From positions 32,622,654-32,686,653 of the forward strand of contig OX359250.1 in assembly GCA_947179485.1 (NCBI GenBank): a stretch of 64,000 bases of DNA, given 5' to 3'. The notes beneath the pieces were generated by a model. The model was not told the origin of the DNA. It made no database searches and worked only from the letters and a program-made list of their open reading frames with translations. The stretch comes from Allacma fusca (taxonomy: Eukaryota; Arthropoda; Collembola; Symphypleona; Sminthuridae). The first letter of the stretch is position 1. The number at the start of each line of letters is the position of its first letter. Below are positions 1 through 64,000 of this stretch, piece after piece. Position numbers and translations under genes: made by a program.

Positions 1-2
1 AA

Positions 3-2985: not shown

Positions 2986-3231
2986 TTTCCCCCAATACCC
3001 AGCCCCAAACCAAAGAACCAATCTTTCTCACGTGCCCTTTAACATTGATTTTTCCTGGTGTAGCAAATGCCTGGTACAAATGTATTGTACCACGGTACAC
3101 GCTATTATAATTTGCATTACTTGCACCAGGTATTTTTCCTGGTACAATGCACTAACAACTATCATATACTGCACCAGGTATAATCCCTATGTAAAATCCC
3201 TATGTACCAGGTAAGAAACTTTAACCGTACA

Positions 3232-4472: not shown

Positions 4473-4970
4473 AAACTGCTAAACTGAAAATGCAAAACTA
4501 AAATTGCAATTTCAGATTTTGCAATTTTGAATTCGCACAACTGAAATTGTAAAACTGAAATTGCAAAAATAAATTGCAATTTTGAATGTGCAAAACTGAA
4601 ATTGCAAAACTGGTATTGCAAAACTGAAATTGCAAAGCTGAAATTGCAAAACTGAAATTGCAAAGCTGAAAATGCAAAGCTGAAATTGCAAAGCTGAAAT
4701 TGCAAAACTGATATTGCCAAACTGAAATTGCCAAACTGAAATTGCTAATTTAAATTTGCAAAACTCAAATTGCGATTTTGAATTCGCAAAACTGATATTG
4801 CAATTATGAATTTGCAAAACGAAAATTGCAATTTTGAATTTAAAAAACTAAAATTCCTAAACTAAAATTGCAGTTCTGAATTTCCAAACTCAAATTGCGA
4901 AACGGAAATTGCCGTTTTGAATTTGCGAAACTGAAATTGATATTTTGAATTGACAAAACTGAAATTGCAA
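4473..4970. repeat. Left edge of the array: GAAATTGCAAAACT variant zone
   Basis: Here most units carry T where the core has C (AAATTGC instead of AAACTGC), and several read CAAAGCT. The change to the AAACTGC form occurs at about 4970-5000. This edge zone is unlike any long stretch of the core and probably holds old, unhomogenised units. Confidence 0.75.
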
Positions 4971-7900
4971 CTTTAAAACTGCAAAACTGAAACTGCAAAA
5001 CCAAATATGCAATTTTGAAACTTAAAAACTGAAACTTCAATACTTAAATTACAACATTGATACAAAAAATTAAAATTGCAATTTTGAAACTGCAAAACTG
5101 AAACTGCAAAACTGAAACTGTAAAACTGAAACTGTAAAACTGAAACTGCAAAACCGAAACTGAAAAACTGAAACTGAAAAACTGAAACTGCAAAACTGAA
5201 ACTGCCTAACTGAAACTGCCTAACTGAAACTGCAAAACTGAAACTGCAAAACTGAAACTGCAAAACTGAACCTGAAAAACTGAACCTGAAAAACTGAAAC
5301 TGGAAAACTGAACCTGCAAAACTGAAACTAAAACTGAAAAACTAAATTGCAATATTAAAATTAAAATTGTAGTTTTCAAACTAAAAAACTGAAATTTTGA
5401 AACTGCAAAACTGAAATTGCAAAACTGAAATTACAATTATGAAACTGCAAAACTGAAACTGAAATAGCAAAATTGAAATTACAATTATGAAACTGCGAAA
5501 CTGAAACTGAAGAACTGAAACTGCAATATGGAAACTTCAAAACTAAAATGGCAATTTTGAAACTGCAAAACTGAAATTGAAAAATTGAAATTACAATTTT
5601 GAAACTGCAAACTGAAACCAAAAAACTGAAACAACAAACTGAAACCTCAAAGCTAAAACTGCAAAATTGAAATTACAATTTTGAAGCTGTACACTGACAC
5701 TGCAAAACTGAAACTGCAAATTGGATTCACAAAACTGAAACTGTACAATTGTAATTCAAAATTTGAAACTGCCAAATTGAAATTACAATTTTGCAACTGC
5801 AAAACTGAAACTGCAAAACTGAAACTGCAAAACTGAAACTGCAAAACTGAAACTGTAAAACTGAAACTGCAAAACTGAAACTGCAATTTTAAAACTGCTT
5901 AATTAAAATTGCAATTATCAAACTGCAAAACTGAAACTGCAAAATTGAAACTACAAAATTAAAGTGCAATTTTGAAACTGCAAAGTTGAAACTACAAAAT
6001 TAAAGTGCAATTTTGAAACTGCAAAATATAAATTGCAATTTTGAAACTGCAAAATTAAAGTTGCAGTTTTGAATTTGCACAACTAAAACTGCAACACTGA
6101 AACTGCAAAACTGAAACTTAAAAACTGAAAAATTATAATTATAATTTTGAAACTGCAAAACTGAAACTGAAAAATTTAAACTGAAAAACCTAAACTGTAA
6201 AACTCATTCTGAAAAAATGAAAATGCAAAACTGAAACTGCAAAACTAAAATTGCGATTTTGAAGCTGGAAAATTATAATTTCAATTTTCAAACTACAAAA
6301 CTGAAACTGCAAAATTAAATTACAATATTAAAACTGGAAAATTGAAATTGCAGTTTTGAAACTCAAAAATTGAAATTTTGAAACTGCAAAACTGAAACTG
6401 CAAAACTAAAACTGCAAAACTGAAATAAAAATTTTGAAACTGCAAACGGAAACTAAAAAACTGAAACAAAAAACTGGAACTGAAATACTGAAACTGCGAA
6501 AAATAAATTACAATTTTGAAACTGCAAAATTGAAACTGAAAAACTGAAACTGCAAAACTGAAACTGCAAAACTGAAACTGCCTAACTGAAACAAAAAACT
6601 AAAACTGCAAAGCTAAAACTACAAAATTGAAATTACAATTTTAAAACTACAAAACTGAAACTGAAAAGCTGAAACTGCAAAACTAAAAGAGCAATTTTGA
6701 AGCTTCAAAATTATAATTTCAATTTTCAAACTACAAAACTGAAATTGCAAAACTAAAAGAGCAATTTTGAAGCTGCAAAATTATAATTTCAATTTTCAAA
6801 CTACAAAACTGAAACTGCGAAATTAAATTACAATGTTAAAATGGAAAACTGAAACTGCAAAACTGAAACTGCAAAACTGAAACAGCAAAACTGTAACTGA
6901 AATACGGAAACTGCGAAAAAAAACTGCAATTTTGAAACTGCCAAATTGAAATTACAATTTTGAAACTGTTAAACTGAAACTACAGAACTCAAGATGCAAA
7001 ACTCAAACTGCAATACTTAAATTGCAACTTTGAAACTAAAAACTTGAAATTGCAATTTTGAAACAACAAAACTGAAGTTACAAAACTGAAACCGAAAAAG
7101 TAAAACTGCAAAATTGAATTGCAATTTTGAAAATGCAAAGTTGGAAATGCAAGTTTGAAACTGCAAAATTGAAATTGCAATTTTCATACTGCAAAACTGA
7201 AACAACAAAACTAAACCAGCAAAACTGAAGCAGCAAAATTGAATTGTGTTTTTGAAACTAGAAAAGTATAGTTGCAATTTTGAAACGGCAAAACTGAAAC
7301 TGTAAAACTGAAACTGTAAAACTGAAACTGCAAAAAAAATTGCCATTTTGAAACTAAAAAATTGAAATTGCAATTTTGAAACTGAAACTACAAAACTGCA
7401 GCTTCAAAACTGAAACTGCAAAAGTAAAACTGCAAAAGTAAATTTGAAAAATTGAATTGCAATTTTGAAACTGCAAAATTGAATTGCAAATATGAAACTG
7501 CAAAGTTGAAATATCAAGTTCGACACTGCAAAACTGAAACTGCAAAACTGAAACTGCAAAACTGAAACTGAAAAACTGAAACTACAAAACTGAAACTGCA
7601 AAACTGAAACTGAAAAACTGAAACTGGAAAACTAAAACGGCAAAACTGAAACTGCAAAACTGAAACAGGAAAACTGTAACTGAAATACTGAAACTGCAAA
7701 AAATAAATTGCAATTTTGAAACTGGAAAATTGAAATCACAATTTTGATACATTAAAACTCAAACTGCAAAACTGAAACGTAAATACTTAAATTACAACTT
7801 TGATACTAAAAAATTAAAATTGCAATTTTAAAACTGCAAAACTGTAACTGCAAAACTGAAACTGCAAACTGAAACTTCAAATCGGAAACTGTAAAATTGA

Positions 7901-8000
7901 AACTGCAAAATTGAAACTGCAAAATTGAAACTGCAAAATTAAAACTGGAAAATTGAATTGCATTTTTGAAACTGCAAGATTGAAATTGCAAGTTTGAAAC
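4971..8000. repeat. Degenerate zone of the array
   Basis: Units of the 14-bp family remain recognisable but substitutions and small length changes are frequent. Perfect runs of more than a few units are rare. A+T-rich variants (GCAATTTTGAAACTGC and similar) are scattered, still mostly in the 14-bp register; near 5964, 6005 and 6033 the spacings are about 3 and 2 units. The same variants later mark higher-order repeats in the core. Confidence 0.75.
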
Positions 8001-11000: not shown

Positions 11001-12240
11001 AACAGAAAGTGCAAAACTGTAACTGGAATACTAAAACTGCAAAACTGTAACTGGAAAACTAAAACTCCAAAACTGAAACTCCAAAACTGAAACTGCAAAA
11101 CTGAAACTGCAAAACTGAAACTGCAAAACTGAAACTGCAAAACTGATACTGCAAAACTGAAACTGCAAAACTGAAACTGCAAAACTGAAACTGTTAAACT
11201 GAAACTGCAAAACTGAAACTGAAACTGCAAAACTGAAACTGCAAAACTGAAACTGCAAAACTGAAACTGCAAAACCGAAACTGCAAAACTAAAACTGCAA
11301 AACTGAAACTGTAAAACTGAAGTTGCAAAACTGAAACTGCAAAACTGAAGCTGGAAAACTGAAACTGGAAAACTTAAATTGCAAAACTGAAACAGAAACA
11401 CTGAAATTGCAAAACTGAAACTGCAAAATTGAATTGCAATTTTGAAACTTCAAAAGTTTAGTTGCATTTTTGAAATTGCAAAACTGAAACTGCAGAACTG
11501 AAACTGCAGAACTGAAAAAGCAGAACTGAAAAAGCAAAACTGAAACTGCCAAACTGAAACTGCAAAACTGAAACTGCAAAACTGAAACTGCAAAAAAGAA
11601 ACCGCAAAACAGAAACTGCTACACTGAAACTGCAAAACTGAAACTGCAAAACTGAAACTGCTATACTGAAACTGCAAAACTGAAACTGAAACTGCAAAAC
11701 TGAAACTGCAAAACTGAAACTGCAAAACTGAAACTGCAAAACTGAAACTGAAAACTGAAACTGCAAAACTGAAACTGCCAAACTGAAACTGCAAAACTGA
11801 AACTGCAAAACTGAAACTACAAAACTGAAACTGAAAACTGAAACTGCAAAACTGAAACTGCAAAACTGAAACTGCAAAACTGAAACTGCAAAACTGAAAC
11901 TGCAAAACTGAAACTGCAAAACTGAAACTGCAAAACTGAAACTGCAAAACTGAAACTGCAAAACTGAAACTGCAAAACTGAAACTGCAAAACTGAAACTG
12001 CAAAACTGAAACTGCAAAACTGAAACTGCAAAACTGAAACTGCAAAACTGAAACTGCAAAATTGAAACAGCAAAATTGAATTGCAATTTTGAAACTTCAA
12101 AAGTATAGTTGCAATTTTTAAACTGCAAAACTGAAACTGCAAAACTGAAACTTCAAAACTGAAACTACAAAATTGAATTGCAATTTTTCAAACTGCTAAG
12201 TTGAAATTGCAAACTTGAAACTGCAAAACTGAAACTGAAA
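8001..12240. repeat. Intermediate zone with an early ~1.26-1.28-kb duplication
   Basis: Unit quality improves from left to right. A distinctive block recurs at an offset of 1,255 bp: two AAACAGC units followed by AATACTGAAGCTTC, at 8191/8226 and again at 9446/9481. The block ATTCTAGTTGCAAATTC recurs at 8561 and 9844, an offset of 1,283 bp, so two units (28 bp) were gained in between. A form related to the core marker GTAAAAATAAATAT appears at about 8027, 8446 and 9730. Confidence 0.65.
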
Positions 12241-22600: not shown

Positions 22601-24568
22601 AAACTGTAACTGCAAAACTGAAACTGCAAACTGAAACTGCAAAACTGAAACTGCAAAACTGATACTGCAAAACTGAAACTGGAAAACTGAAACTGCAAAA
22701 CTGAAACTGGAAAACTGAAACTGGAGAACTGAAACTGCAAAACTGAAACTGCAAACTGAAACTGCAAAACTGAAACAGCAAAATTGAATTGCAATTTTGA
22801 AACTACAAAAGTATAGTTGCAATTTTTAAACTGCAAAACTGAAACTGCAAAACTGAAACTGCAAAACTGAAACTGCAAAACTGAAACTTCAAAACTTAAA
22901 CTACAAAATTGAATTGCAATTTTAAAAGTGCTAAGTTAAAATAGCAAACTTGAAACTGCAAAACTGAAACTGGAAAACTGTAACTGGAAAACTGAAACTG
23001 CAAAACTGTAACTGGAAAACTGAAACTGCAAAACTGAAACTGCAGAACTGAAACTGCAAAACTGAAACTGGAAAACTGAAACTGGAAAACTGAAACTGGA
23101 AAACTGAAACTGCAAAACTGAAACTGCAAAACTGAAACTGCAAAACTGAAACTGCAAAACTGAAACTGCAAAACTGAAACTGCAAAACTTAAACTGCAAA
23201 ACTACAACTGCAAAACTGAAACTGCAGAATTGAAAAAGTAAAACCGAAAACGCAAAACTGAAAGTGCAAAACTGTAACTGGAAAACTGAAACTGGAAAAC
23301 TGAAACTGGAAAACTGAAACTGGAAAACTGAAACTGGATAACTGAAACTGCAAAACTGTAACTGGAAAACTGAAACTGCAAAACTGAAACTGCAAAACTG
23401 AAACTGCAAAACTGTAACTGCAAAACTGAAACTGCAAACTGAAACTGCAAAACTGAAACTGCAAAACTGATACTGCAAAACTGAAACTGGAAAACTGAAA
23501 CTGCAAAACTGAAACTGCAAAACTGAAACTGCAAAACTGAAACTGCAAAACTGAAACTGCAAAACTGAAACTGCAAAACTGAAACTGCAAAACTGAAACT
23601 GCAAAACTGAAACTGCAAAACTGAAACTGCAAAACTGAAACTGCAAAACTGAAACAGCAAAATTGAATTGCAATTTTGAAACTACAAAAGTATAGTTGCA
23701 ATTTTTAAACTGCAAAACTGAAACTGCAAAACTGAAACTCAAAACTTAAACTACAAAATTGAATTGCAATTTTATAAGTGCTAAGTTAAAATTGCAAACT
23801 TGAAACTGCAAAACTAAAACTGCAAAACTGAAACTGCAGAATTGAAAAAGTAAAACCGAAAACGCAAAACTGAAAGTGCAAAACTGTAACTGGAAAACTG
23901 AAACTGGAAAACTGAAACTGGAAAACTGAAACTGGAAAACTGAAACTGGAAAACTGAAACTGGAAAACTGAAACTGGATAACTGAAACTGCAAAACTGTA
24001 ACTGGAAAACTGAAACTGCAAAACTGAAACTGCAAAACTGAAACTGCAAAACTGTAACTGCAAAACTGAAACTGCAAACTGAAACTGCAAAACTGAAACT
24101 GCAAAACTGATACTGCAAAACTGAAACTGCAAAACTGAAACTGCAAAACTGAAACTGGAAAACTGAAACTGGAAAACTGAAACTGGAAAACTGAAACTGG
24201 AAAACTGAAACTGGAAAACTGAAACTGCAAAACTGAAACTGGAAAACTGAAACTGGAAAACTAAAACTGCAAAACTGAAACTGCAAAACTGAAACTGCAA
24301 AACTGAAACTGCGAAACTGAAACTGCAAAACTGAAACTGCAAAACTGAAACTGCAAAACTGAAACTGCAAAACTGAAACTGCAAAATTGAAACAGCAAAA
24401 TTGAATTGCAATTTTGAAACTTCAAAAGTATAGTTGCAATTTTAAAACTGCAAAACTGAAACTGCAACACTGAAACTTCAAAACTGAAACTACAAAATTG
24501 AATTGCAATTTTTCAAACTGCTAAGTTGAAATTGCAAACTTGAAACTGCAAAACTGAAACTGAAAAAC
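13652..24568. repeat. Higher-order repeat of ~2.7 kb, four copies
   Basis: The marker CGAGACTGTAAAAATAAA starts at 12244, 13652, 16373, 19117, 21832 and 24569. After the first short interval (1,408 bp) the next four are 2,721, 2,744, 2,715 and 2,737 bp. Within each copy A+T-rich marker blocks tend to recur in similar order, ending with a CTTCAAAAGTATAG-type block just before the next marker. An 86-codon stretch at 18741-19001 recurs unchanged in translation at 21456-21716. Extra partial markers at 19549 and 22278 show internal rearrangement. Copies differ in number and type of 14-bp units. Confidence 0.7.
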
Positions 24569-44790: not shown

Positions 44791-44825
44791 GCAAAACTGA
44801 AACTACAAAACTGAAACTGAAAACT

Positions 44826-45246
44826 GAAACTGCAAAACTGAAACTGCAAAACTGAAACTGCAAAACTGAAACTGCAAAACTGAAACTGCAAAACTGAAAC
44901 TGCAAAACTGAAACTGCAAAACTGAAACTGCAAAACTGAAACTGCAAAACTGGAACTGCAAAACTGAAACTGCAAAACTGAAACTGCAAAACTGAAACTG
45001 CAAAACTGAAACTGCAAAACTGAAACTGCAAAACTGAAACTGCAAAACTGAAACTGCAAAACTGAAACTGCAAAACTGAAACTGCAAAACTGAAACTGCA
45101 AAACTGAAACTGCAAAACTGAAACTGCAAAACTGAAACTGCAAAACTGAAACTGCAAAACTGAAACTGCAAAACTGAAACTGCAAAACTGAAACTGCAAA
45201 ACTGAAACTGCAAAACTGAAACTGCAAAACTGAAACTGCAAAACTG
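44826..45246. repeat. Near-perfect canonical run, about 30 units
   Basis: About 30 consecutive canonical units with a single substitution (GGAACTGC near 44953). The last 20 units (44965-45246) are identical. Similar pure runs lie at about 46262-46533 (about 19 units) and 48541-48660. They suggest very recent local expansion. Confidence 0.85.
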
Positions 45247-46669
45247 ATACTGCAAAACTGATACTGCAAAACTGAAACTGCAAAACTGAAACTGCAAAAC
45301 TGAAACTGTTAAACTGAAACTGCAAAACTGAAACTGAAACTGCAAAACTGAAACTGAAACTGCAAAACTGAAACTGCAAAACTGAAACTGCAAAACTGAA
45401 ACTGCAAAACTGAAACTGCAAAACCGAAACTGCAAAACTGAAACTGCAAAACTGAAACTGTAAAACTGAAGTTGCAAAACTGAAACTGCAAAAACTGAAA
45501 CTGTAAAACTTAAATTGCAAAACTGAAACAGAAACACTGAAATTGCAAAACTGAAACTGCAAAATTGAATTGCAATTTTGAAACTTCAAAAGTTTAGTTG
45601 CATTTTTGAAATTGCAAAACTGAAACTGCAGAACTGAAACTGCAGAACTGAAAAAGCAAAACTGAAACTGCCAAACTGAAACTGCAAAACTGAAACTGCA
45701 AAACTGAAACTGCAAAACTGAAACTGCAAAAAAGAAACCGCAAAACAGAAACTGCTACACTGAAACTGCAAAACTGAAACTGCTAAACTGAAACTGCTAT
45801 ACTGAAACTGCAAAACTGAAACTGAAACTGCAAAACTGAAACTGCAAAACTGAAACTGCAAAACTGAAACTGCAAAACTGAAACTGCAAAACTGAAACTG
45901 CAAAACTGAAACTGCAAAACTGAAACTGCAAAACTGAAACTGCAAAACTGAAACTGAAAACTGAAACTGCAAAACTGCAAAACTGAAACTGCAAAACTGA
46001 AACTGCAAAACTGAAACTACAAAACTGAAACTGAAAACTGAAACTGCAAAACTGAAACTGCAAAACTGAAACCGCAAAACTGAAACTGCAAAACTGAAAC
46101 TGCAAAACTGAAACTGCAAAACTGAAACTGCAAAACTGAAACTGCAAAACTGAAACTGCAAAACTGAAACTGCAAAACTGAAACTGCAAAATTGAAACTG
46201 CAAAACTGAAACTGCAAAACTGAAACTGCAAAACTGAAACTGCAAAACTGAAACTTTTAAACTGAAACTGCAAAACTGAAACTGCAAAACTGAAACTGCA
46301 AAACTGAAACTGCAAAACTGAAACTGCAAAACTGAAACTGCAAAACTGAAACTGCAAAACTGAAACTGCAAAACTGAAACTGCAAAACTGAAACTGCAAA
46401 ACTGAAACTGCAAAACTGAAACTGCAAAACTGAAACTGCAAAACTGAAACTGCAAAACTGAAACTGCAAAACTGAAACTGCAAAACTGAAACTGCAAAAC
46501 TGAAACTGCAAAACTGAAACTGCAAAACTGAAAGTGCAAAACTGAAACTGCAAAACTGAAACTGCAAAACTGAAACTGCAAAACTGAAAGTGCAAAACTG
46601 AAACTGCAAAACTGAAACTGCAAAACTGAAACTGCAAAACTGAAAGTGCAAAACTGAAACTGCAAAACT

Positions 46670-46815
46670 GAAAAAGCAAAACTGAAAAAGCAAAACTGAA
46701 AAAGCAAAACTGAAAAAGCAAAACTGAAAAAGCAAAACTGAAAAAGCAAAACTGAAAAAGCAAAACTGAAAAAGCAAAACTGAAAAAGCAAAACTGAAAA
46801 AGCAAAACTGAAAAG
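46670..46815. repeat. Block of about ten identical GAAAAAGCAAAACT variant units
   Basis: The variant GAAAAAGCAAAACT, elsewhere seen singly or in twos and threes, is repeated about ten times in a row, followed by one GAAAAGGC unit and a GAAAGTGC unit. Smaller blocks with the same following order lie at about 48690-48800 and 53690-53775. The fixed order of the three variants shows these blocks share descent. Confidence 0.8.
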
Positions 46816-49800
46816 GCAAAACTGAAAGTGCAAAACTGTAACTGGAAAACTAAAACTGCAAAACTGAAACTGGAAAACTGAAACTGCAAAACTGAAACTG
46901 CAAAACTGTAACTGGAAAACTGAAAAAGCAAAACTGAAAAAGCAAAACTGAAAAAGCAAAACTGAAACTGGAAAACTGAAACTGCAAAACTGAAACTGCA
47001 AAACTGAAACTGAAAAACTGAAACTGCAAAACTGAAACTGCAAAACTGAAACTGCAAAACTGAAACTGAAAAACTGAAACTGCAAAACCGAAACTACAAA
47101 ACTGAAACTGCAAAAATGAAACTGCAGAACTGAAAAAGAAAAACTAAAACTGCAAAACTGTAACTGGAAAACTAAAACTGCAAAACTAAAATTGAAAAAC
47201 TGTAACTGGAAAACTGCAACTACAAAACTGAAACTGCAAAACTGAAACTTCAAAATTGAAACTGCAAAAGTAAAACTACAAAATTGAAACTGCAAAACTG
47301 AAACTGAAAACTGTAACTGGAAAACTAAAACTGAAACTGCAAAACTGTAACTGGAAAACTGAAACTACAAAACTGAAACTGCAAAACTGGAACTGCAGAA
47401 CTGAAACTGCAGAACTGAAAAAGCAAAACTAAAACTGGAAAACTGTAAGTGGAAAACTAAAACTGGAAAACTGAAACTGGAAAACTGAAACTGGAAAACT
47501 AAAACTGCAAAACTGTAACTGAAAAACTAAAACTGCAAAACTAAAATTGAAAAACTGTAACATGAAAACTGCAACTACAAAACTGAAACTGCAAAACTGA
47601 AACTTCAAAATTGAAACTGCAAAAGTAAAACTACAAAATTGAAACTGCAAAACTGAAACTGAAAACTGTGACTGGAAAACTAAAACTGAAACTGCAAAAC
47701 TGTAACTGGAAAACTGCAACTACAAAACTGAAACTGCAAAACTGAAACTGCAAAACTGAAACTGCAAAACTAAAACTGCAGAACTGAAACTGCAGAACTG
47801 AAAAAGCAAAACTAAAACTGGAAAACTGTAACTGGAAAACTAAAACTGGAAAACTGAAACTGGAAAACTGAAACTGGAAATTTGAAACTGCAAAACTGAA
47901 ACTGCAAAACTGAAACTGCAAAACTGAAACTGAAAACTGAAACTGCAAAACTGAAACTGCAAAACTGAAACTGCAAAACTGAAACTGCAAAACTGAAACT
48001 ACAAAACTGAAACTGAAAACTGAAACTGCAAAACTGAAACTGCAAAACTGAAACTGCAAAACTGAAACTGCAAAACTGAAACTGCAAAACTGAAACTGCA
48101 AAACTGAAACTGCAAAACTGAAACTGCAAAACTGAAACTGCAAAACTGAAACTGCAAAACTGAAACTGTAAAACTGAAACTGCAAAACTGAAACTGCAAA
48201 ACTGAAACTGCAAAACTGAAACTGCAAAACTGAAACTGCAAAACTGAAACTGCAAAACTGAAACTGCAAAACTGAAACTGCAAAACTGAAACTGCAAAAC
48301 TGAAACTGCAAAACTGAAACTGCAAAACTGAAACTTTTAAACTGAAACTGCAAAACTGATACTGCAAAACTGAAACTGCAAAACTGAAACTGCAAAACTG
48401 AAACTGCAAAACTGAAACTGCAAAACTGAAACTGCAAAACTGAAACTGCAAAACTGAAACTGCAAAACTGAAACTGCAAAACTGAAACTGCAAAACTGAA
48501 ACTGCAAAACTGAAACTGCAAAACTGAAACCGCAAAACTGAAACTGCAAAACTGAAACTGCAAAACTGAAACTGCAAAACTGAAACTGCAAAACTGAAAC
48601 TGCAAAACTGAAACTGCAAAACTGAAACTGCAAAACTGAAACTGCAAAACTGAAACTGCAAAACTGAAAGTGCAAAACTGAAACTGCAAAACTGAAAAAG
48701 CAAAACTGAAAAAGCAAAACTGAAAAAGCAAAACTGAAAAAGCAAAACTGAAAAAGCAAAACTGAAAAAGCAAAACTGAAAAAGCAAAACTGAAAAGGCA
48801 AAACTGAAAGTGCAAAACTGTAACTGGAAAACTAAAACTGCAAAACTGAAACTGCAAAACTGAAACTGCAAAACTGAAACTGCAAAACTGTAACTGGAAA
48901 ACTGAAAAAGCAAAACTGAAAAAGCAAAACTGAAAAAGCAAAACTGAAACTGGAAAACTGAAACTGCAAAACTGAAACTGGAAAACTGAAACTGCAAAAC
49001 TGAAACTGCAAAACTAAAACTGCAAAACTGAAACTGCAAAACTGAAACTGAAAAACTGAAACTGCAAAACTGAAACTGCAAAACTGAAACTGAAAAAATG
49101 AAACTGCAGAACTGAAAAAGAAAAACTAAAACTGCAAAACTGTAACTGGAAAACTAAAACTGCAAAACTAAAATTGAAAAACTGTAACTGGAAAACTGCA
49201 ACCATAAAACTGAAACTGCAAAACTGAAACTTCAAAATTGAAACTGCAAAAGTAAAACTACAAAATTGAAACTGCAAAACTGAAACTGAAAACTGTAACT
49301 GGAAAACTAAAACTGAAACTGCAAAACTGTAACTGGAAAACTGCAACTACAAAACTGAAACTGCAAAACTGAAACTGCAAAACTGAAACTGCAAAACTGA
49401 AACTGCAAAACTAAAACTGCAGAACTGAAACTGCGGAACTAAAAAAGCAACACTAAAACTGGAAAACTGTAACTGGAAAACTAAAACTGGAAAACTGAAA
49501 CTGGAAAACTGAAACTGGAAAACTGAAACTGGAAAACTGAAACTGGAAAACTGAAACTGCAAAACTGTAACTGGAAAACTGAAACTGGAAAACTGAAACT
49601 GCAAAACTGAAACTGTAAAACTGAAACTGCAAAACTGAAACTGCAAAACTGAAACTGCAAAACTGAAACTGCAAAACTGAAACTGCAAAACTGAAACTTT
49701 TAAACTGAAACTGCAAAACTGAAACTGCAAAACTGAAACTGCAAAACTGAAACTGCAAAACTGAAACTGCAAAACTGAAACTGCAAAACTGAAACTGCAA

Positions 49801-50659
49801 AACTGAAACTGCAAAACTGAAACTGCAAAACTGAAACTGCAAAACTGAAACTGCAAAACTGAAACTGCAAACTGTAACTGGAAAACTGAAAAAGCAAAAC
49901 TGAAAAAGCAAAACTGAAAAAGCAAAACTGAAACAGCAAAACTGAAACTGCAAAACTGAAACTGGAAAACTGAAACTGCAAAACTGAAACTGCAAAACTA
50001 AAACTGCAAAACTGAAACTGCAAAACTGAAACTGCAAAACTGAAACTGAAAAACTGAAACTGCAAAACTGAAACTGCAAAACTGAAACTGCAAAAATGAA
50101 ACTGCAGAACTGAAAAAGAAAAACTAAAACTGCAAAACTGTAACTGGAAAACTAAAACTGCAAAACTAAAATTGAAAAACTGTAACTGGAAAACTGCAAC
50201 TACAAAACTGAAACTGCAAAACTGAAACTTCAAAATTGAAACTGCAAAAGTAAAACTACAAAATTGAAACTGCAAAACTGAAACTGAAAACTGTAACTAT
50301 GAAACTAAAACTGAAACTGCAAAATTGTAACTGGAAAACTGCAACTACAAAACTGAAACTGCAAAACTGAAACTGCAAAACTGAAACTGCAAAACTAAAA
50401 CTGCAGAACTGAAACTGCGGAACTAAAAAAGTAACACTAAAACTGGAAAACTGTAACTGGAAAACTAAAACTGGAAAACTGAAACTGGAAAACTGAAACT
50501 GCAAAACTGAAACTGCAAAACTGAAACTGTAAAACTTAAACTGCAAAACTGAAACCGCAAAACAGAAACCGCAAAACTGAAACTGCAAAACTGTAACTGG
50601 AAAACTGAAACTGGAAAACTGAAACTGCAATACTGAAACTGCAAAACTGAAACTGCAAA

Positions 50660-50880
50660 ACTGTAACTGGAAAACTGAAAATGGAAAACTGAAACTGGAA
50701 ATCTGAAACTGGAAAACTGAAACTGGAAAACTGAAACTGGAAAACTGAAACTGGAAAACTGAAACTGGAAATCTGAAACTGGAAAACTGAAACTGGAAAA
50801 CTGAAACTGGAAAACTGAAACTGGAAAACTGAAACTGGAAAACTGAAACTGGAAAACTGAAACTGGAAAACTGAAACTGC
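50660..50880. repeat. Block of GAAACTGGAAAACT variant units
   Basis: About fifteen consecutive units carry CTGG instead of CTGC, including two that end AAATCT. Other CTGG blocks occur at about 8830-9010, 15541-15640 and 17090-17215, so this single-base variant has expanded locally several times. Confidence 0.75.
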
Positions 50881-52611
50881 AAAACTGAAACTGCAAAACT
50901 GAAACTGCAAAACTGAAACTTTTAAACTGAAACTGCAAAACTGAAACTGCAAAACTGAAACTGCAAAACTGAAACTGCAAAACTGAAACTGCAAAACTAA
51001 AACTGCAAAACTGAAACTGCAAAACTGAAACTGCAAAACTGAAACTGCAAAACTGAAACTGAAAAACTGAAACTGAAAAACTGAAACTGCAAAACTGAAA
51101 CTGCAAAACTGAAACTGCAAAAATGAAACTGCAGAACTGAAAAAGAAAAACTAAAACTGCAAAACTGTAACTGGAAAACTAAAACTGCAAAACTAAAATT
51201 GAAAAACTGTAACTGGAAAACTGCAACTACAAAACTGAAACTGCAAAACTGAAACTTCAAAATTGAAACTGCAAAAGTAAAACTACAAAATTGAAACTGC
51301 AAAACTGAAACTGAAAACTGTAACTATGAAACTAAAACTGAAACTGCAAAACTGCAACTACAAAACTGAAACTGCAAAACTGAAACTGCAAAACTGAAAC
51401 CGCAAAACTAAAACTGCAGAACTGAAACTGCGGAACTAAAAAAGTAACACTAAAACTGGAAAACTGTAACTGGAAAACTAAAACTGCAAAACTGAAACCG
51501 CAAAACTGAAACCGCAAAACTGAAACTGCAAAACTGTAACTGGAAAACTGAAACTGGAAAACTGAAACTGCAAAACTGAAACTGCAAAACTGAAACTGCA
51601 AAACTGTAACTGGAAAACTGAAAATGGAAAACTGAAACTGGAAATCTGAAACTGGAAAACTGAAACTGGAAAACTGAAACTGGAAAACTGAAACTGGAAA
51701 ACTGAAACTGCAAAACTGAAACTGCAAAACTGAAACTTCAAAACTGAAACTGCAAAACTGAAACTGCAAAACTGAAACTGCAAAACTGAAACTGCAAAAC
51801 TGAAACTGCAAAACTGAAACTTTTAAACTGAAACTGCAAAACTGAAACTGCAAAACTGAAACTGCAAAACTGAAACTGCAAAACTGAAACTGCAAAACTG
51901 AAACTGCAAAACTGAAACTGCAAAACTGAAACTGCAAACTGTAACTGGAAAACTGAAAAAGCAAAACTGAAAAAGAAAAACTGAAAAAGCAAAACTGAAA
52001 CTGGAAAACTGAAACTGCAAAACTGAAACTGGAAAACTGAAACTGCAAAACTGAAACTGCAAAACTAAAACTGCAAAACTGAAACTGCAAAACTGAAACT
52101 GCAAAACTGAAACTGAAAAACTGAAACTGCAAAACTGAAACTGCAAAAATGAAACTGCAGAACTGAAAAAGAAAAACTAAAACTGCAAAACTGTAACTGG
52201 AAAACTAAAACTGCAAAACTAAAATTGAAAAACTGTAACTGGAAAACTGCAACTACAAAACTGAAACTGCAAAACTGAAACTTCAAAATTGAAACTGCAA
52301 AAGTAAAACTACAAAATTGAAACTGCAAAACTGAAACTGAAAACTGTAACTATGAAACTAAAACTGAAACTGCAAAACTGTAACTGGAAAACTGCAACTA
52401 CAAAACTGAAACTGCAAAACTGAAACTGCAAAACTGAAACTGCAAAACTAAAACTGCAGAACTGAAACTGCGGAACTAAAAAAGTAACACTAAAACTGGA
52501 AATCTGAAACTGGAAAACTGAAACTGGAAAACTGAAACTGGAAAACTGAAACTGGAAAACTGAAACTGGAAAACTGAAACTGTAAAACTTAAACTGCAAA
52601 ACTGAAACCGC

Positions 52612-55575
52612 AAAACTGAAACCGCAAAACTGAAACTGCAAAACTGTAACTGGAAAACTGAAACTGGAAAACTGAAACTGCAAAACTGAAACTGCAAAAC
52701 TGAAACTGCAAAACTGTAACTGGAAAACTGAAAATGGAAAACTGAAAGTGGAAAACTGAAACTGGAAAACTGAAACTGCAAAACTGAAACTGCAAAACTG
52801 AAACTGCAAAACTGAAACTGCAAAACTGAAACTGCAAAACTGAAACTGCAAAACTGAAACTGCAAAACTGAAACTGCAAAACTGAAACTGCAAAACTGAA
52901 ACTGCAAAACTGAAACTGCAAAACTGAAACTGCAAAACTGAAACTGCAAAACTAAAACTGAAAAAGCAAAACTGAAAAAGCAAAACTGAAAGTGCAAAAC
53001 TGTAACTGGAAAACTAAAACTGCAAAACTAAAACTGAAAAACTGAAAAAGCAAAACTGAAAAAGCAAAACTGAAAAAGCAAAACTGAAAAAGCAAAACTG
53101 AAAAGGCAAAACTGAAAGTATAAAACTGTAACTGGAAAACTGAAACTGCAAAACTGAAACTGCAAAACTGAAACTGTAAAACTTAAACTGCAAAACTGAA
53201 ACCGCAAAACTGAAACTGCAAAACTGAAACTGCAAAACTGAAACTGCAAAATTGAATTGATATTTTAAAAATTCTAAAGTATAGTTGCACATTTTAAACT
53301 GCAAAACTGAAACTGCAAAACTGCAAACTGAAACTGCAAAACTATACCTGCAGAACTGAAACTGCAGAACTGAAAAAGCAAAACTAAAAAAGCAAAACTG
53401 AAAGTGTGAAATTGTAACTGGAAAACTAAAACTGCTAAACTGAAACTGCAAAACTGAAACTGGAAAACTGAAACTGGAAAACTGAAACTGCAAAACTGAA
53501 ACTGCAAAACTGAAACTGCAAAACTGAAACTGCAAAACTGAAACTGCAAAACTGAAACTGCAAAACTGAAACTGCAAAACTGAAACTGCAAAACTGAAAC
53601 TGCAAAACTAAAACTGCAAAACTGAAAAAGCAAAACTGAAAGTGCAAAACTGTAACTGGAAAACTAAAACTGCAAAACTGAAACTGAAAAACTGAAAAAG
53701 CAAAACTGAAAAAGCAAAACTGAAAAAGCAAAACTGAAAAAGCAAAACTGAAAAAGCAAAACTGAAAAGGCAAAACTGAAAGTATAAAACTGTAACTGGA
53801 AAACTGAAACTGCAAAACTGAAACTGCAAAACTGAAACTGTAAAACTTAAACTGCAAAACTGAAACCGCAAAACTGAAACTGCAAAACTGAAACTGCAAA
53901 ATTGAATTGATATTTTAAAAATTCTAAAGTATAGTTGCACATTTTAAACTGCAAAACTGAAACTGCAAAACTGCAGAACTGAAAAAGCAAAACTAAAAAA
54001 GCAAAACTGAAAGTGTGAAATTGTAACTGGAAAACTAAAACTGCTAAACTGAAACTGCAAAACTGAAACTGCAAAACTGAAACTGCAAAACTGAAACCGC
54101 AAAACTGAAACTGCAAAACTGTAACTGGAAAACTGAAACTGGAAAACTGAAACTGCAAAACTGAAACTGCAAAACTGAAACTGCAAAACTGTAACTGGAA
54201 AACTGAAAATGGAAAACTGAAAGTGGAAAACTGAAACTGGAAAACTGAAACTGCAAAACTGAAACTGCAAAACTGAAACTGCAAAACTGAAACTGCAAAA
54301 CTGAAACTGCAAAACTGAAACTGCAAAACTGAAACTGCAAAACTGAAACTGCAAAACTGAAACTGCAAAACTGAAACTGCAAAACTGAAACTGCAAAACT
54401 GAAACTGCAAAACTGAAACTGCAAAACTAAAACTGAAAAAGCAAAACTGAAAAAGCAAAACTGAAAGTGCAAAACTGTAACTGGAAAACTAAAACTGCAA
54501 AACTAAAACTGAAAAACTGAAAAAGCAAAACTGAAAAAGCAAAACTGAAAAAGCAAAACTGAAAAAGCAAAACTGAAAAGGCAAAACTGAAAGTATAAAA
54601 CTGTAACTGGAAAACTGAAACTGCAAAACTGAAACTGCAAAACTGAAACTGTAAAACTTAAACTGCAAAACTGAAACCGCAAAACTGAAACTGCAAAACT
54701 GAAACTGCAAAACTGAAACTGCAAAATTGAATTGATATTTTAAAAATTCTAAAGTATAGTTGCACATTTTAAACTGCAAAACTGAAACTGCAAAACTGCA
54801 AACTGAAACTGCAAAACTATACCTGCAGAACTGAAACTGCAGAACTGAAAAAGCAAAACTAAAAAAGCAAAACTGAAAGTGTGAAATTGTAACTGGAAAA
54901 CTAAAACTGCTAAACTGAAACTGCAAAACTGAAACTGGAAAACTGAAACTGGAAAACTGAAACTGCAAAACTGAAACTGCAAAACTGAAACTGCAAAACT
55001 GAAACTGCAAAACTGAAACTGCAAAACTGAAACTGCAAAACTGAAACTGCAAAACTGAAACTGCAAAACTGAAACTGCAAAACTAAAACTGCAAAACTGA
55101 AAAAGCAAAACTGAAAGTGCAAAACTGTAACTGGAAAACTAAAACTGCAAAACTGAAACTGAAAAACTGAAAAAGCAAAACTGAAAAAGCAAAACTGAAA
55201 AAGCAAAACTGAAAAAGCAAAACTGAAAAAGCAAAACTGAAAAGGCAAAACTGAAAGTATAAAACTGTAACTGGAAAACTGAAACTGCAAAACTGAAACT
55301 GCAAAACTGAAACTGTAAAACTTAAACTGCAAAACTGAAACCGCAAAACTGAAACTGCAAAACTGAAACTGCAAAACTGAAACTGCAAAATTGAATTGAT
55401 ATTTTAAAAATTCTAAAGTATAGTTGCACATTTTAAACTGCAAAACTGAAACTGCAAAACTGCAGAACTGAAAAAGCAAAACTAAAAAAGCAAAACTGAA
55501 AGTGTGAAATTGTAACTGGAAAACTAAAACTGCTAAACTGAAACTGCAAAACTGAAACTGCAAAACTGAAACTGC
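52612..55575. repeat. 1,475-bp tandem duplication with a TTTTAAAAATTCTAAAG marker
   Basis: Landmarks at 52621/54096, 52744/54219, 52951/54426 and 53251/54726 are each 1,475 bp apart. Later landmarks are 1,489 bp apart, a one-unit difference. The marker GAATTGATATT followed by TTAAAAATTCTAAAG occurs with starts near 53251, 53901, 54726, 55390, 55971, 56747 and 62487, with spacings of about 580-825 bp in the cluster. Confidence 0.75.
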
Positions 55576-57439
55576 AAAACTGAAAAAGCAAAACTGAAAA
55601 AGCAAAACTGAAAGTGCAAAACTGTAACTGGAAAACTAAAACTGCAAAACTGAAACTGCAAAACTGAAACTGCAAAACTGAAACTGCAAAACTGAAACTG
55701 GAAAACTGAAACTGGAAAACTGAAACTGGAAAACTGAAACTGCAAAACTGAAACTGCAAAACTGAAACTGCAAAACTGAAACTGCAAAACTAAAACTGCA
55801 AAACTGAAACTGCAAAACTGAAACTGCAAAACTGAAACTGCAAAACTAAAACTGCAAAACTGAAAAAGAAAAACTAAAACTGCAAAACTGAAACTGTAAA
55901 ACTTAAACTGCAAAACTGAAACCGCAAAACTGAAACTGCAAAACTGAAACTGCAAAACTGAAACTGCAAAATTGAATTGATATTTTAAAAATTCTAAAGT
56001 ATAGTTGCACATTTTAAACTGCAAAACTGAAACTGCAAAACTGCAAACTGAAACTGCAAAACTATACCTGCAGAACTGAAACTGCAGAACTGAAAAAGCA
56101 AAACTAAAAAAGCAAAACTGAAAGTGTGAAATTGTAACTGGAAAACTAAAACTGCTAAACTGAAACTGCAAAACTGAAACTGCAAAACTGAAACTGCAAA
56201 ACTGAAAAAGCAAAACTGAAAAAGCAAAACTGAAAGTGCAAAACTGTAACTGGAAAACTAAAACTGCAAAACTGAAACTGCAAAACTGAAACTGCAAAAC
56301 TGAAACTGGAAAACTGAAACTGGAAAACTGAAACTGCAAAACTGAAACTGCAAAACTGAAACTGCAAAACTGAAACTGCAAAACTGAAACTGCAAAACTG
56401 AAACTGCAAAACTGAAACTGCAAAACTGAAACTGCAAAACTGAAACTGCAAAACTAAAACTGCAAAACTGAAAAAGCAAAACTGAAAGTGCAAAACTGTA
56501 ACTGGAAAACTAAAACTGCAAAACTGAAACTGAAAAACTGAAAAAGCAAAACTGAAAAAGCAAAACTGAAAAAGCAAAACTGAAAAAGCAAAACTGAAAA
56601 GGCAAAACTGAAAGTATAAAACTGTAACTGGAAAACTGAAACTGCAAAACTGAAACTGCAAAACTGAAACTGTAAAACTTAAACTGCAAAACTGAAACCG
56701 CAAAACTGAAACTGCAAAACTGAAGCTGCAAAACTGAAACTGCAAAATTGAATTGATATTTTAAAAATTCTAAAGTATAGTTGCACATTTTAAACTGCAA
56801 AACTGAAACTGCAAAACTGCAGAACTGAAAAAGCAAAACTAAAAAAGCAAAACTGAAAGTGTGAAATTGTAACTGGAAAACTAAAACTGCTAAACTGAAA
56901 CTGCAAAACTGAAACTGCAAAACTGAAACTGCAAAACTGAAAAAGCAAAACTGAAAAAGCAAAACTGAAAGTGCAAAACTGTAACTGGAAAACTAAAACT
57001 GCAAAACTGAAACTGCAAAACTGAAACTGCAAAACTGAAACTGCAAAACTGAAACTGGAAAACTGAAACTGGAAAACTGAAACTGCAAAACTGAAACTGC
57101 AAAACTGAAACTGCAAAACTGAAACTGCAAAACTAAAACTGCAAAACTGAAACTGCAAAACTGAAACTGCAAAACTGAAACTGCAAAACTAAAACTGCAA
57201 AACTGAAACTGCAAAACTGAAACTGCAAAACTAAAACTGCAAAACTGAAACTGCAAAACTGAAACTGCAAAACTGAAACTGCAAAACTGAAACTGCAAAA
57301 CTGAAACTGCAAAACCGAAACTGCAAAACTGAAACTGCAAAACTGAAACTGCAAAACTGAAACTGCAAAACTGAAACTGCAAAACTGAAACTGCAAAACT
57401 GAAACTGCAAAACTGAAACTGCAAAACTGAAACTGCAAA

Positions 57440-60400
57440 ACTGAAACTGCAAAACTGAAACTGCAAAATTAAAACTGCAAAACTGAAACTGCAAAACTGA
57501 AACTGCAAAACTGAAACTGCAAAATTAAAACTGCAAAACTGAAAAAGCAAAACTGAAAAAGCAAAACTGAAAAGGCAAAACTGAAAGTGCAAAACTGTAA
57601 CTGGAAAACTAAAACTGCAAAACTGAAACTGCAAAACTGAAACTGCAAAACTGAAACTGCAAAACTGAAACTGCAAAACTGTAACTGGAAAACTGAAAAA
57701 GCAAAACTGAAAAAGCAAAACTGAAAAAGCAAAACTGAAACTGGAAAACTGAAACTGCAAAACTGAAACTGGAAAACTGAAACTGCAAAACTGAAACTGC
57801 AAAACTAAAACTGCAAAACTGAAACTGCAAAACTGAAACTGCAAAACTGAAACTGAAAAACTGAAACTGCAAAACTGAAACTGCAAAACTGAAACTGAAA
57901 AAATGAAACTGCAGAACTGAAAAAGAAAAACTAAAACTGCAAAACTGTAACTGGAAAACTAAACCTGCAAAACTAAAATTGAAAAACTGTAACTGGAAAA
58001 CTGCAACTACAAAACTGAAACTGCAAAACTGAAACTTCAAAATTGAAACTGCAAAAGTAAAACTACAAAATTGAAACTGCAAAACTGAAACTGAAAACTG
58101 TAACTGGAAAACTAAAACTGAAACTGCAAAACTGTAACTGGAAAACTGCAACTACAAAACTGAAACTGCAAAACTGAAACTGCAAAACTGAAACTGCAAA
58201 AATAAAACTGCAGAACTGAAACTGCGGAACTAAAAAAGCAACACTAAAACTGGAAAACTGTAACTGGAAAACTAAAACTGGAAAACTGAAACTGGAAAAC
58301 TGAAACTGGAAAACTGAAACTGGAAAACTAAAACTGCAAAACTGAAACTGCAAAACTGTAACTGGAAAACTGAAACTGGAAAACTGAAACTGCAAAACTG
58401 AAACTGTAAAACTGAAACTGCAAAACTGAAACTGCAAAACTGAAACTGCAAAACTGAAACTTCAAAACTGAAACTGCAATACTGAAACTGCAAAACTGAA
58501 ACTGCAAAACTGAAACTGCAAAACTGAAACTGCAAAACTGAAACTGCAAAACTGAAACTGCAAAACTGAAACTTTTAAACTGAAACTGCAAAACTGAAAC
58601 TGCAAAACTGAAACTGCAAAACTGAAACTGCAAAACTGAAACTGCAAAACTGAAACTGCAAAACTGAAACTGCAAAACTGAAACTGCAAAACTGAAACTG
58701 CAAACTGTAACTGGAAAACTGAAAAAGCAAAACTGAAAAAGCAAAACTGAAAAAGCAAAACTGAAAAAGCAAAACTGAAAAAGCAAAACTGAAAAAGCAA
58801 AACTGAAACTGGAAAACTGAAACTGCAAAACTGAAACTGGAAAACTGAAACTGCAAAACTGAAACTGCAAAACTAAAACTGCAAAACTGAAACTGCAAAA
58901 CTGAAACTGCAAAACTGAAACTGAAAAACTGAAACTGCAAAACTGAAACTGCAAAAATGAAACTGCAAAAATGAAACTGCAGAACTGAAAAAGAAAAACT
59001 AAAACTGCAAAACTGTAACTGGAAAACTAAAACTGCAAAACTAAAATTGAAAAACTGTAACTGGAAAACTGCAACTACAAAACTGAAACTGCAAAACTGA
59101 AACTTCAAAATTGAAACTGCAAAAGTAAAACTACAAAATTGAAACTGCAAAACTGAAACTGAAAACTGTAACTATGAAACTAAAACTGAAACTGCAAAAC
59201 TGTAACTGGAAAACTGCAACTACAAAACTGAAACTGCAAAACTGAAACTGCAAAACTGAAACTGCAAAACTAAAACTGCAGAACTGAAACTGCGGAACTA
59301 AAAAAGTAACACTAAAACTGGAAAACTGTAACTGGAAAACTGAAACTGGAAAACTGAAACTGGAAAACTGAAACTGGAAAACTGAAACTGGAAAACTGAA
59401 ACTGGAAAACTAAAACTGCAAAACTGAAACTGCAAAACTGTAACTGGAAAACTGAAACTGGAAAACTGAAACTGCAAAACTGAAACTGCAAAACTGAAAC
59501 TGCAAAACTGTAACTGGAAAACTGAAAATGGAAAACTGAAACTGGAAATCTGAAACTGGAAAACTGAAACTGGAAAACTGAAACTGGAAAACTGAAACTG
59601 CAAAACTGAAACTGCAAAACTGAAACTGCAAAACTGAAACTGCAAAACTGAAACTGCAAAACTGAAACTGCAAAACTGAAACTGCAAAACTGAAACTGCA
59701 AAACTGAAACTGCAAAACTGAAACTGCAAAACTGAAACTGCAAAACTGAAACTGCAAAACTGAAACTGCAAAACTGAAACTGCAAAACTGAAACTGAAAA
59801 ACTGAAACTGCAAAACTGAAACTGCAAAACTGAAACTGCAAAATTAAAACTGCAAAACTGAAACTGCAAAACTGAAACTGCAAAACTGAAACTGCAAAAT
59901 TAAAACTGCAAAACTGAAAAAGCAAAACTGAAAAAGCAAAACTGAAAAGGCAAAACTGAAAGTGCAAAACTGTAACTGGAAAACTAAAACTGCAAAACTG
60001 AAACTGCAAAACTGAAACTGCAAAACTGAAACTGCAAAACTGTAACTGGAAAACTGAAAAAGCAAAACTGAAAAAGCAAAACTGAAAAAGCAAAACTGAA
60101 ACTGGAAAACTGAAACTGCAAAACTGAAACTGGAAAACTGAAACTGCAAAACTGAAACTGCAAAACTAAAACTGCAAAACTGAAACTGCAAAACTGAAAC
60201 TGCAAAACTGAAACTGAAAAACTGAAACTGCAAAACTGTAACTGCAAAACTGAAACTGAAAAAATGAAACTGCAGAACTGAAAAAGAAAAACTAAAACTG
60301 CAAAACTGTAACTGGAAAACAAAAACTGCAAAACTAAAATTGAAAAACTGTAACTGGAAAACTGCAACTACAAAACTGAAACTGCAAAACTGAAACTTCA

Positions 60401-62160
60401 AAATTGAAACTGCAAAAGTAAAACTACAAAATTGAAACTGCAAAACTGAAACTGAAAACTGTAACTGGAAAACTAAAACTGAAACTGCAAAACTGTAACT
60501 GGAAAACTGCAACTACAAAACTGAAACTGCAAAACTGAAACTGCAAAACTGAAACTGCAAAAATAAAACTGCAGAACTGAAACTGCGGAACTAAAAAAGC
60601 AACACTAAAACTGGAAAACTGTAACTGGAAAACTAAAACTGGAAAACTGAAACTGGAAAACTGAAACTGGAAAACTGAAACTGGAAAACTAAAACTGCAA
60701 AACTGAAACTGCAAAACTGTAACTGGAAAACTGAAACTGGAAAACTGAAACTGCAAAACTGAAACTGCAAAACTGAAACTGCAAAACTGAAACTGCAAAA
60801 CTGAAACTGCAAAACTGAAACTTCAAAACTGAAACTGCAATACTGAAACTGCAAAACTGAAACTGCAAAACTGAAACTGCAAAACTGAAACTGCAAAACT
60901 GAAACTGCAAAACTGAAACTGCAAAACTGAAACTTTTAAACTGAAACTGCAAAACTGAAACTGCAAAACTGAAACTGCAAAACTGAAACTGCAAAACTGA
61001 AACTGCAAAACTGAAACTGCAAAACTGAAACTGCAAAACTGAAACTGCAAAACTGAAACTGCAAAACTGAAACTGCAAAACTGAAACTGCAAACTGTAAC
61101 TGGAAAACTGAAAAAGCAAAACTGAACAAGCAAAACTGAAAAAGCAAAACTGAAAAAGCAAAACTGAAACTGGAAAACTGAAACTGCAAAACTGAAACTG
61201 GAAAACTGAAACTGCAAAACTGAAACTGCAAAACTAAAACTGCAAAACTGAAACTGCAAAACTGAAACTGCAAAACTGAAACTGAAAAACTGAAACTGCA
61301 AAACTGAAACTGCAAAAATGAAACTGCAAAAATGAAACTGCAGAACTGAAAAAGAAAAACTAAAACTGCAAAACTGTAACTGGAAAACTAAAACTGCAAA
61401 ACTAAAATTGAAAAACTGTAACTGGAAAACTGCAACTACAAAACTGAAACTGCAAAACTGAAACTTCAAAATTGAAACTGCAAAAGTAAAACTACAAAAT
61501 TGAAACTGCAAAACTGAAACTGAAAACTGTAACTATGAAACTAAAACTGAAACTGCAAAACTGTAACTGGAAAACTGCAACTACAAAACTGAAACTGCAA
61601 AACTGAAACTGCAAAACTGAAACTGCAAAACTAAAACTGCAGAACTGAAACTGCGGAACTAAAAAAGTAACACTAAAACTGGAAAACTGTAACTGGAAAA
61701 CTGAAACTGGAAAACTGAAACTGGAAAACTGAAACTGGAAAACTGAAACTGGAAAACTGAAACTGGAAAACTAAAACTGCAAAACTGAAACTGCAAAACT
61801 GTAACTGGAAAACTGAAACTGGAAAACTGAAACTGCAAAACTGAAACTGCAAAACTGAAACTGCAAAACTGTAACTGGAAAACTGAAAATGGAAAACTGA
61901 AACTGGAAATCTGAAACTGGAAAACTGAAACTGGAAAACTGAAACTGGAAAACTGAAACTGCAAAACTGAAACTGCAAAACTGAAACTGCAAAACTGAAA
62001 CTGCAAAACTGAAACTGCAAAACTGAAACTGCAAAACTGAAACTGCAAAACTGAAACTGCAAAACTGAAACTGCAAAACTGAAACTGCAAAACTGAAACT
62101 GCAAAACTGAAACTGCAAAACTGAAACTGCAAAACTGAAACTGCAAAACTGAAACTGCAA
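57440..62160. repeat. 2,361-bp tandem duplication, two copies
   Basis: The region from about 57440 to 59800 recurs at about 59815 to 62160. Most landmarks are offset by 2,361 bp, for example AAATGAAACTGCAGAACTG at 57901 and 60262. At the left border the AAATTAAAACTGC block is offset by 2,375 bp (57466 and 59841), a one-unit difference. Single-base differences are present, for example AAACCTGC near 57961 against AAAACTGC in the partner. Confidence 0.75.
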
Positions 62161-64000
62161 AACTGGAACTGCAAAACTAAAACTGCAAAACTGAAAAAGC
62201 AAAACTGAAAAAGCAAAACTGAAAGTGCAAAACTGTAACTGGAAAACTAAAACTGCAAAACTGAAACTGAAAAACTGAAAAAGCAAAACTGAAAAAGCAA
62301 AACTGAAAAAGCAAAACTGAAAAAGAAAAACTGAAAAGGCAAAACTGAAAGTATAAAACTGTAACTGGAAAACTGAAACTGCAAAACTGAAACTGCAAAA
62401 CTGAAACTGTAAAACTTAAACTGCAAAACTGAAACCGCAAAACTGAAACTGCAAAACTGAAACTGCAAAACTGAAACTGCAAAATTGAATTGATATTTTA
62501 AAAATTCTAAAGTATAGTTGCACATTTTAAACTGCAAAACTGAAACTGCAAAACTGCAAACTGAAACTGCAAAACTATACCTGCAGAACTGAAACTGCAG
62601 AACTGAAAAAGCAAAACTAAAAAAGCAAAACTGAAAGTGCAAAATTGTAACTGGAAAACTAAAACTGCTAAACTGAAACTGCAAAACTGAAACTGCAAAA
62701 CTGAAACTGCAAAACTGTAACTGGAAAACTGAAAATGGAAAACTGAAACTGGAAATCTGAAACTGGAAAACTGAAACTGGAAAACTGAAACTGCAAAACT
62801 GAAACTGCAAAACTGAAACTGCAAAACTGAAACTGCAAAACTGAAACTGCAAAACTGAAACTGCAAAACTGAAACTGCAAAACTGAAACTGCAAAACTGA
62901 AACTGCAAAACTGAAACTGCAAAACTGAAACTGCAAAACTAAAACTGCAAAACTGAAACTGCAAAACTGAAACTGCAAAACTAAAACTGCAAAACTGAAA
63001 AAGCAAAACTGAAAAAGCAAAACTGAAAGTGCAAAACTGTAACTGGAAAACTGAAACTGCAAAACTGAAACTGCAAAACTGAAACTGCAAAACTGAAACT
63101 GAAAACTGAAACTGCAAAACTGAAACTGCAAAACTGAAACTGCAAAACTGAAACTGCAAAACTGAAACTGCAAAACTGAAACTGCAAAACTGAAACTGCA
63201 AAACTGAAACTGCAAAACTGAAACTGCAAAACTGTAACTGCAAAACTGAAACTGGAAAACTGAAACTGGACAACTGAAACTGGAAAACTGAAACTGGAAA
63301 ACTGAATTGATATTTTAAAACTTCAAAAGTATAGTTGCAATTTTTAAACTGCAAAACTGAAACTGGAAAACTGAAACTGCATAACTGAAACTGCAAAATA
63401 AAACTGCAAAACTGAAACTGCAAAACTGAAACTGCAAAATTGAAACTGCAAAACTGAAACTGCAAAACTGAAACTGCAACACTGAAACTGTAAAACTGAA
63501 ACTGCAAAACTGAAACTGCAAAACTGAAACTGCAAAACTGAAACTGCAAAACTGAAACTGCAAAACTGAAACTGCAAAACTGAAACTGCAAAACTGAAAC
63601 TGCAAAACTGAAACTGCAAAACTGAAACTGCAAAACTGAAACTGCAACACTGAAACTGTAAAACTGAAACTGCAAAACTGAAACTGCAAAACTGAATTGA
63701 TATTTTAAAACTTCAAAAGTATAGTTGCAATTTTTAAACTGCAAAACTGAAACTGCAGAACTGAAAAAGAAAAAACTGAAAAAGCAAAACTGAAAGTGCA
63801 AAACTGTAACTGGAAAACTAAAACTGCAAAACTGAAACTGCAAAACTGAAACTGCAAAACTGAAACTGCAAAACTGAAACTGGAAAACTGAAACTGGAAA
63901 ACTGAAACTGCAAAACTAAAACTGCAAAACTGAAACTGCAAAACTAAAACTGCAGAACTGAAACTGCAGAACTGAAACAGCAAAACTGAAAAAGCAAAAC

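Follow-up and report, generated by a model that had tools for sequence, protein, structure and literature searches.

The window analysed here, 64,000 nucleotides of the Allacma fusca assembly (C9:32622654-32686653), is occupied for most of its length by an array of a 14-bp tandem repeat that lies on the sex chromosome X2. We consider it likely that this main array belongs to a non-coding, minisatellite-type satellite family of A. fusca, of which it is the largest array seen, and that it is tolerated in the interior of X2. Most likely it has no sequence-specific job and persists through tolerance at this locus. The features located within the window are as follows:

93 to ~255 and 320 to 691 (together 93-691), plus strand: two pieces, probably coding, towards the 3' end of a host gene, from stop-to-stop frames.
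4473-64000, running on to between C9:32825000 and 32840000, plus strand: 14-bp satellite array with unit AAACTGCAAAACTG, from TRF, the exact 14-mer count and sampled continuation.
4473-8000, plus strand: decayed left margin of the array with many AAATTG/TTTT variants, from lag-14 identity and the letters at positions 4 and 12.
23421-29097, plus strand: copy 1 of a large block duplicated inside the array; its partner is 29801-35477, at lag 6380.
29801-35477, plus strand: copy 2 of the 6.38-kb block, partner 23421-29097.
46001-64000, plus strand: stretch of the window where the array is most homogeneous, with lag-14 identity of 0.85-0.92 per 2 kb.

The assembly analysed comprises 392,743,791 bases in 91 contigs and is a slightly different version from the published qeAllFusc8.1, for which the available text of the genome note gives 392,786,974 bases in 95 scaffolds (PMC10427803). 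Contig C9 is 6,238 bases under its published length of 48,066,046, and C1 is 4,378 bases under 81,897,997 (same text, PMC10427803). Contigs correspond to chromosomes 1 (C1; 81.89 Mb), 2 (C8; 75.61 Mb), 3 (C10; 66,084,411 bases) and 4 (C12; 58.81 Mb), to X1 (C5; 55.59 Mb) and X2 (C9; 48.06 Mb), and to the mitochondrion (C91; 14,936 bases). The main array is found at 32.63-32.83 Mb of the 48.06-Mb X2, an interior position that rules out a subtelomeric block, i.e. a repeat near the chromosome end, which was among the placements offered in the initial annotation.

TRF reported a period of 14 from window position 4473 to 64000, with 4259.9 copies, 84% matches, 1% indels and the consensus AAACTGCAAAACTG. 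The exact 14-mer of the array was counted 1639 times against 3.69 expected from 100 dinucleotide shuffles (largest value 11), and the two results together confirm the 14-bp array originally described over this interval. Base composition is AT-rich (GC 0.33) and orientation is constant, with AAACTG on the plus strand and CAGTTT seen 0-2 times per 2 kb. When the array was scored in 594 overlapping windows of 200 bp, none (0/594) dropped to the level of shuffled array bases (100 draws); the lowest of them reached a per-base score of 0.44, above the shuffled maximum of 0.09 and the flank maximum of -0.04. The claim that the array contains no inserted element therefore holds, and an insertion was discarded as a candidate. 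The array had also been said to continue past the right end of the window, and it does: five stretches sampled beyond the window were array throughout and three samples farther right were not, so that the right end falls beyond C9:32825000, where repeat is still present, and before 32840000. From C9:32696654 to 32825000 five sampled stretches were read, and elsewhere in that interval the array is assigned from motif or DNA matches. As assembled, the main array starts at C9:32,627,126 and measures 198-213 kb, of which the 59.5 kb in the window represent 28-30%. A head-to-tail unit within the 10-60 bp range, repeated in a long array, is that of minisatellite-type satellite DNA, in agreement with the earlier description of a minisatellite or satellite block.

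On either strand, stop codons between positions 8001 and 63998 are divided evenly among the three frames (1381-1422 per frame on the plus strand, 248-273 on the minus strand), and the main array is therefore without a coding frame. The frames of 200 aa or longer listed within 8564-63843 of the window, 55 in number, all lie on the minus strand, because none of the three minus-strand frames of the 14-bp unit contains a stop; with this explanation and the even stop counts, a coding array was rejected. Such minus-strand frames are a warning for gene finders. A structured RNA was likewise set aside, as an Rfam search of the window returned no family at gathering score, and the even stop counts together with this result place the array in non-coding satellite DNA.

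The two probable coding pieces of the left flank stop 3.8 kb before the main array, and we infer that they belong to one gene. The gene is left unnamed; a Pfam search with these pieces gave nothing above the cut-off and four matches below it (best E 0.067). In the same flank, TRF found short tandem arrays with periods of 67, 40 and 68 bp at window positions 1845-2976, in which ACCAGGTATATACCTGGT and TTGGCACGTAGTGCCAA dyads are abundant by eye. At 2604-2705 an inverted repeat, GGTTAGGTTAGTTCGAGTGGAAAGG...CCTTTCCACTCGAACTAACCTAACC, flanks a GC-rich middle and is hairpin-like by eye.

The internal anatomy of the main array qualifies its description as 59.5 kb of uninterrupted repeat: the array, its single orientation and the absence of an insert stand, but the first 3.5 kb are decayed and blocks on the kilobase scale recur. 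Lag-14 identity is 0.69 at 4473-6500 and 0.66 at 6001-8000 vs 0.72-0.92 deeper in the array, peaking at 0.92 at 48-50 kb of the window; over the final 7 kb read at the right it lies at 0.60-0.69. Agreement with the consensus rises from 0.82 at either margin to as much as 0.96 in the interior. At 4473-6500, position 4 of the unit is C in 0.56 and T in 0.38 of cases, and position 12 is C in 0.62 and T in 0.34. The block pair at lag 6380 spans 5677 bp at 99.4% identity, with exact stretches of up to 2135 bp; another pair (2443 bp, 98.7%, lag 2093) spans the window end, and further blocks recur at lags of 1447, 1475, 1555 and 2361. The longest exact repeat was 2245 bp (74 kb read contiguously; 300-bp seeds, fewer than 30 copies). 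A dyad-rich variant tag, CAAAAGTATAGTTGCAATTTT, occurs in 188 copies in the genome, all in that orientation, and all 100 of the places listed fall in the main array. A homogenised core with decaying margins and repeated blocks is the pattern expected from unequal exchange and block duplication.

The 14-bp family was found in at least seven places on three chromosomes (five on X2, and one each on chromosome 4 and X1), several arrays per family being a further property of satellite DNA. A DNA search with the array at 15.600 Mb of X2 (36 of 1319 candidates scored) returned 145 matches, only on C9 and C12, and the arrays form a graded series: their identity to this query, itself nearly perfect, ranges from 100% to 71-74%. 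The arrays are listed below; identities are to the 15.600-Mb query, in that search and with that number of candidates scored:

X2, 32.63-32.81 Mb: main array region, 77-98% identity.
X2, 20.70-20.77 Mb: sister array, 73-79% identity.
X2, 14.33-14.35 Mb: sister array, 71-77% identity.
Chromosome 4, 16.26-16.29 Mb: sister array, 97-100% and 80-83% identity.
X2, 15.36 and 15.60 Mb: sister arrays, from a separate genome search.
X1, C5:17.707-17.709 Mb: sister array, two places by a fixed-length degenerate pattern.

In the 2.8 kb read, the X1 array is diverged repeat throughout, with a lag-14 identity of 0.62. The degenerate pattern, which more diverged copies would escape, gave no place on C1-C4 or C6-C8 (chromosomes 1 and 2 included) among the matches listed, which run in order of contig number, and chromosome 3 had no row among the matches listed in the DNA searches (36 of 1319 and 8 of 575 candidates scored). 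A family confined to X2 is ruled out by the arrays on chromosome 4 and X1. The 15.60-Mb array (C9:15600292-15601537) consists of ~1.25 kb of nearly perfect 14-bp repeats, runs in reverse to the main array and has abrupt edges in non-repeat DNA; it is either a young insertion or a library artefact. The margin of the chromosome 4 array is imperfect, at 80-84% identity to the 14-bp family.

Resolving the unit into AAACTG, CA and AAACTG had suggested an ancestral repeat shorter than 14 bp, a proposal that the sister arrays leave unsupported. Consensus sequences were obtained by wrap-around alignment to the 14-mer, using 1.3-4 kb per array. The main array and the perfect arrays share the consensus AAACTGCAAAACTG, and the diverged stretches yield AAAATGCAAAATTG (chromosome 4 margin), AAACTGCAAAATTG (X2, 20.70 Mb) and AAACTGCAATTTTG (X2, 14.35 Mb), which are not doubled hexamers. 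Similarity at lag 28 exceeds that at lag 14 in the two X2 arrays (0.77 over 0.64 at 20.70 Mb, 0.82 over 0.63 at 14.35 Mb), the latter array being a mixture of two alternating 14-mers. Every stretch tested was more similar at lag 14 or 28 than at lags 6-8, and lags 6, 7 and 8 never exceeded lag 14. Roughly half of the units in the two older X2 arrays already carry C at position 4; at position 12, where C completes the hexamer identity, it is the rarer letter in all three older stretches. Units of 14 or 28 bp with no doubled hexamer characterise the more diverged arrays, so the doubled AAACTG unit is probably derived, a direction of change drawn from divergence among these arrays. Alternatively, former hexamers could have been blurred by C-to-T decay at positions 4 and 12, as the decayed margin of the main array suggests.

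Under our preferred reading of a tolerated satellite, the family would have originated in an older A-rich repeat of 14/28 bp with CAAAATTGCAATTTTG-like dyads, and unequal exchange or replication slippage may have amplified a variant of it in which positions 4 and 12 are both C. Duplication of larger blocks would have followed this amplification of the unit, while the array margins would escape homogenisation and then decay.

The assembly contains a 25-base string, which we take to be a SMART-type amplification primer, in 51 exact copies (29 on the plus and 22 on the minus strand) on all six chromosome-size contigs, partly clustered (e.g. C12:16264249-16264273, C1:10699711-10699735 and C9:161266-161290). 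Two of these copies, at C12:16264249 and 16271336, lie within the chromosome 4 array, the first flanked by perfect repeats on both sides. In the portions of this array that were read, perfect runs extend over 4228, 2744 and 1386 bp; the 4228- and 2744-bp runs sit on either side of one primer and reach to where the reading of each stretch ended. On the reverse strand, the genome has 2454 runs of 14 perfect units, with 74 in the 15.36- and 15.60-Mb arrays; the remainder probably represent the chromosome 4 array, which was read in part. Given the primers and the perfect runs, library preparation probably created or extended part of the chromosome 4 array. Primer remnants within perfect satellite runs of a public assembly from a PCR-amplified library indicate that satellite lengths should be checked before they are interpreted.

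The same observations bear on whether the assembled form of the main array is itself owed to the PCR-amplified library, a reading that we consider unlikely. It draws on the persistence of the primer copies, two of them inside an almost perfect array of the AAACTGCAAAACTG unit, and on the protocol given in the available text of the genome note: PacBio ultra-low-input, with PCR and sheared fragments of 12-20 kb (PMC10427803). Against it, none of the 51 exact primer copies lies in the main-array interval, and the window has none with up to 3 mismatches. Unlike the perfect chromosome 4 runs, the main array has a uniformity of 84%, contains variants and grades off at its margins, and X1 and X2 also carry diverged sister arrays. 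In a published test of the ultra-low-input protocol, chimeric alignments amounted to at most 0.81%, and coverage of repeat regions was lower than with another polymerase, according to the portion of that report available to us (PMC11809032). In the 74 kb read contiguously, the longest exact repeat (2245 bp) falls well within a 12-20 kb fragment, so the main array should in principle be resolvable by reads. We therefore regard the main array as real and, because the library was PCR-amplified, its exact length as provisional; it may have been shortened, lengthened or mis-joined in the assembly. The concern raised at the outset, an assembly artefact confined to this locus, is thus answered as regards the single locus, but the primers in the chromosome 4 sister array leave length provisional.

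A centromeric or pericentromeric satellite of X2 would be a large, single-orientation array inside the chromosome, as the main array is at 32.6-32.8 of 48.06 Mb, and the absence of the family from chromosomes 1 and 2 among the matches listed would fit a chromosome-specific centromere. This role is nonetheless disfavoured because the family is spread over X2, and we hold it to be quite improbable. One of the five X2 places is far larger than the rest as far as read, but the other four lie at 14.3-20.7 Mb, one of them only ~1.25 kb long in non-repeat DNA, and 46 kb sampled outside the main array (one stretch left, five right) showed no 14-bp periodicity.

Male zygotes of A. fusca lose one copy each of X1 and X2 in early embryogenesis, as described in the available text of two reports (PMC10427803, PMC9630974). 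That the main array is on X2 and the family also on X1 could point to a cis-acting element for this early elimination, and the available text of a study of Bradysia proposes satellites as candidates for such a role (PMC12405879). We judge this very unlikely for A. fusca. The role is weakened because chromosome 4, which male embryos keep, also carries family copies; part of that array may be artefact, yet the copies include its imperfect margin. An elimination element would be expected on both eliminated chromosomes and on no retained one, and the X1 array is diverged in the 2.8 kb read. Equally slight is the chance that the AAACTG-type family is enriched on X1 and X2 with the 200-kb X2 array forming part of a DNA mark for paternal X2 loss.

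On the reading that we favour, the array adds a member to a well-known kind of satellite DNA. It shares with other minisatellites and short-unit satellites a short tandem unit, a long AT-rich array, a homogenised core, decayed edges and block duplications; that class is typically heterochromatic or centromeric, and the main array is placed here by sequence position. The fly Bradysia (Sciara) coprophila, which undergoes paternal genome elimination, has satellites that are similar in being chromosome-biased in an X-eliminating species, their elimination role being proposed and not shown in the text available (PMC12405879). BcopSat-155 of that fly is centromeric on the X and autosomes according to the same text (PMC12405879), a description that sets it apart from the patchy Allacma family. 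A literature search for the AAACTGCAAAACTG 14-mer gave no match, and one on Collembola satellite DNA gave no such family by title. Allacma was unnamed among the matches listed in a search on its satellites or tandem repeats, which is a weak test, and the portion of the main text of PMC9630974 available has no occurrence of satellite or repeat. This limited literature search found no satellite described from A. fusca. As the species has paternal genome elimination, the 14-mer is of use there as a probe of X2, ready for FISH and chromatin work.

Other observations concern the assembly as a whole. Matches to COX1 over approximately the full family model occur at C12:58139742, C12:57617062, C5:4638854 and C8:22971501, besides the mitochondrial C91:3428; these extra copies on three chromosomes are either recent nuclear copies or scaffolded mitochondrial pieces. 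The scaffold start of C9 (positions 1-3760) is a tandem unit with 622 bp spacing and 17-bp subrepeats, to which the starts of C10 and C12 are similar by eye, and the start of C1 presumably corresponds to 18S rDNA, which it resembles. Stretches of N follow these repeats within the first 10 kb of C9, C1, C10 and C12.
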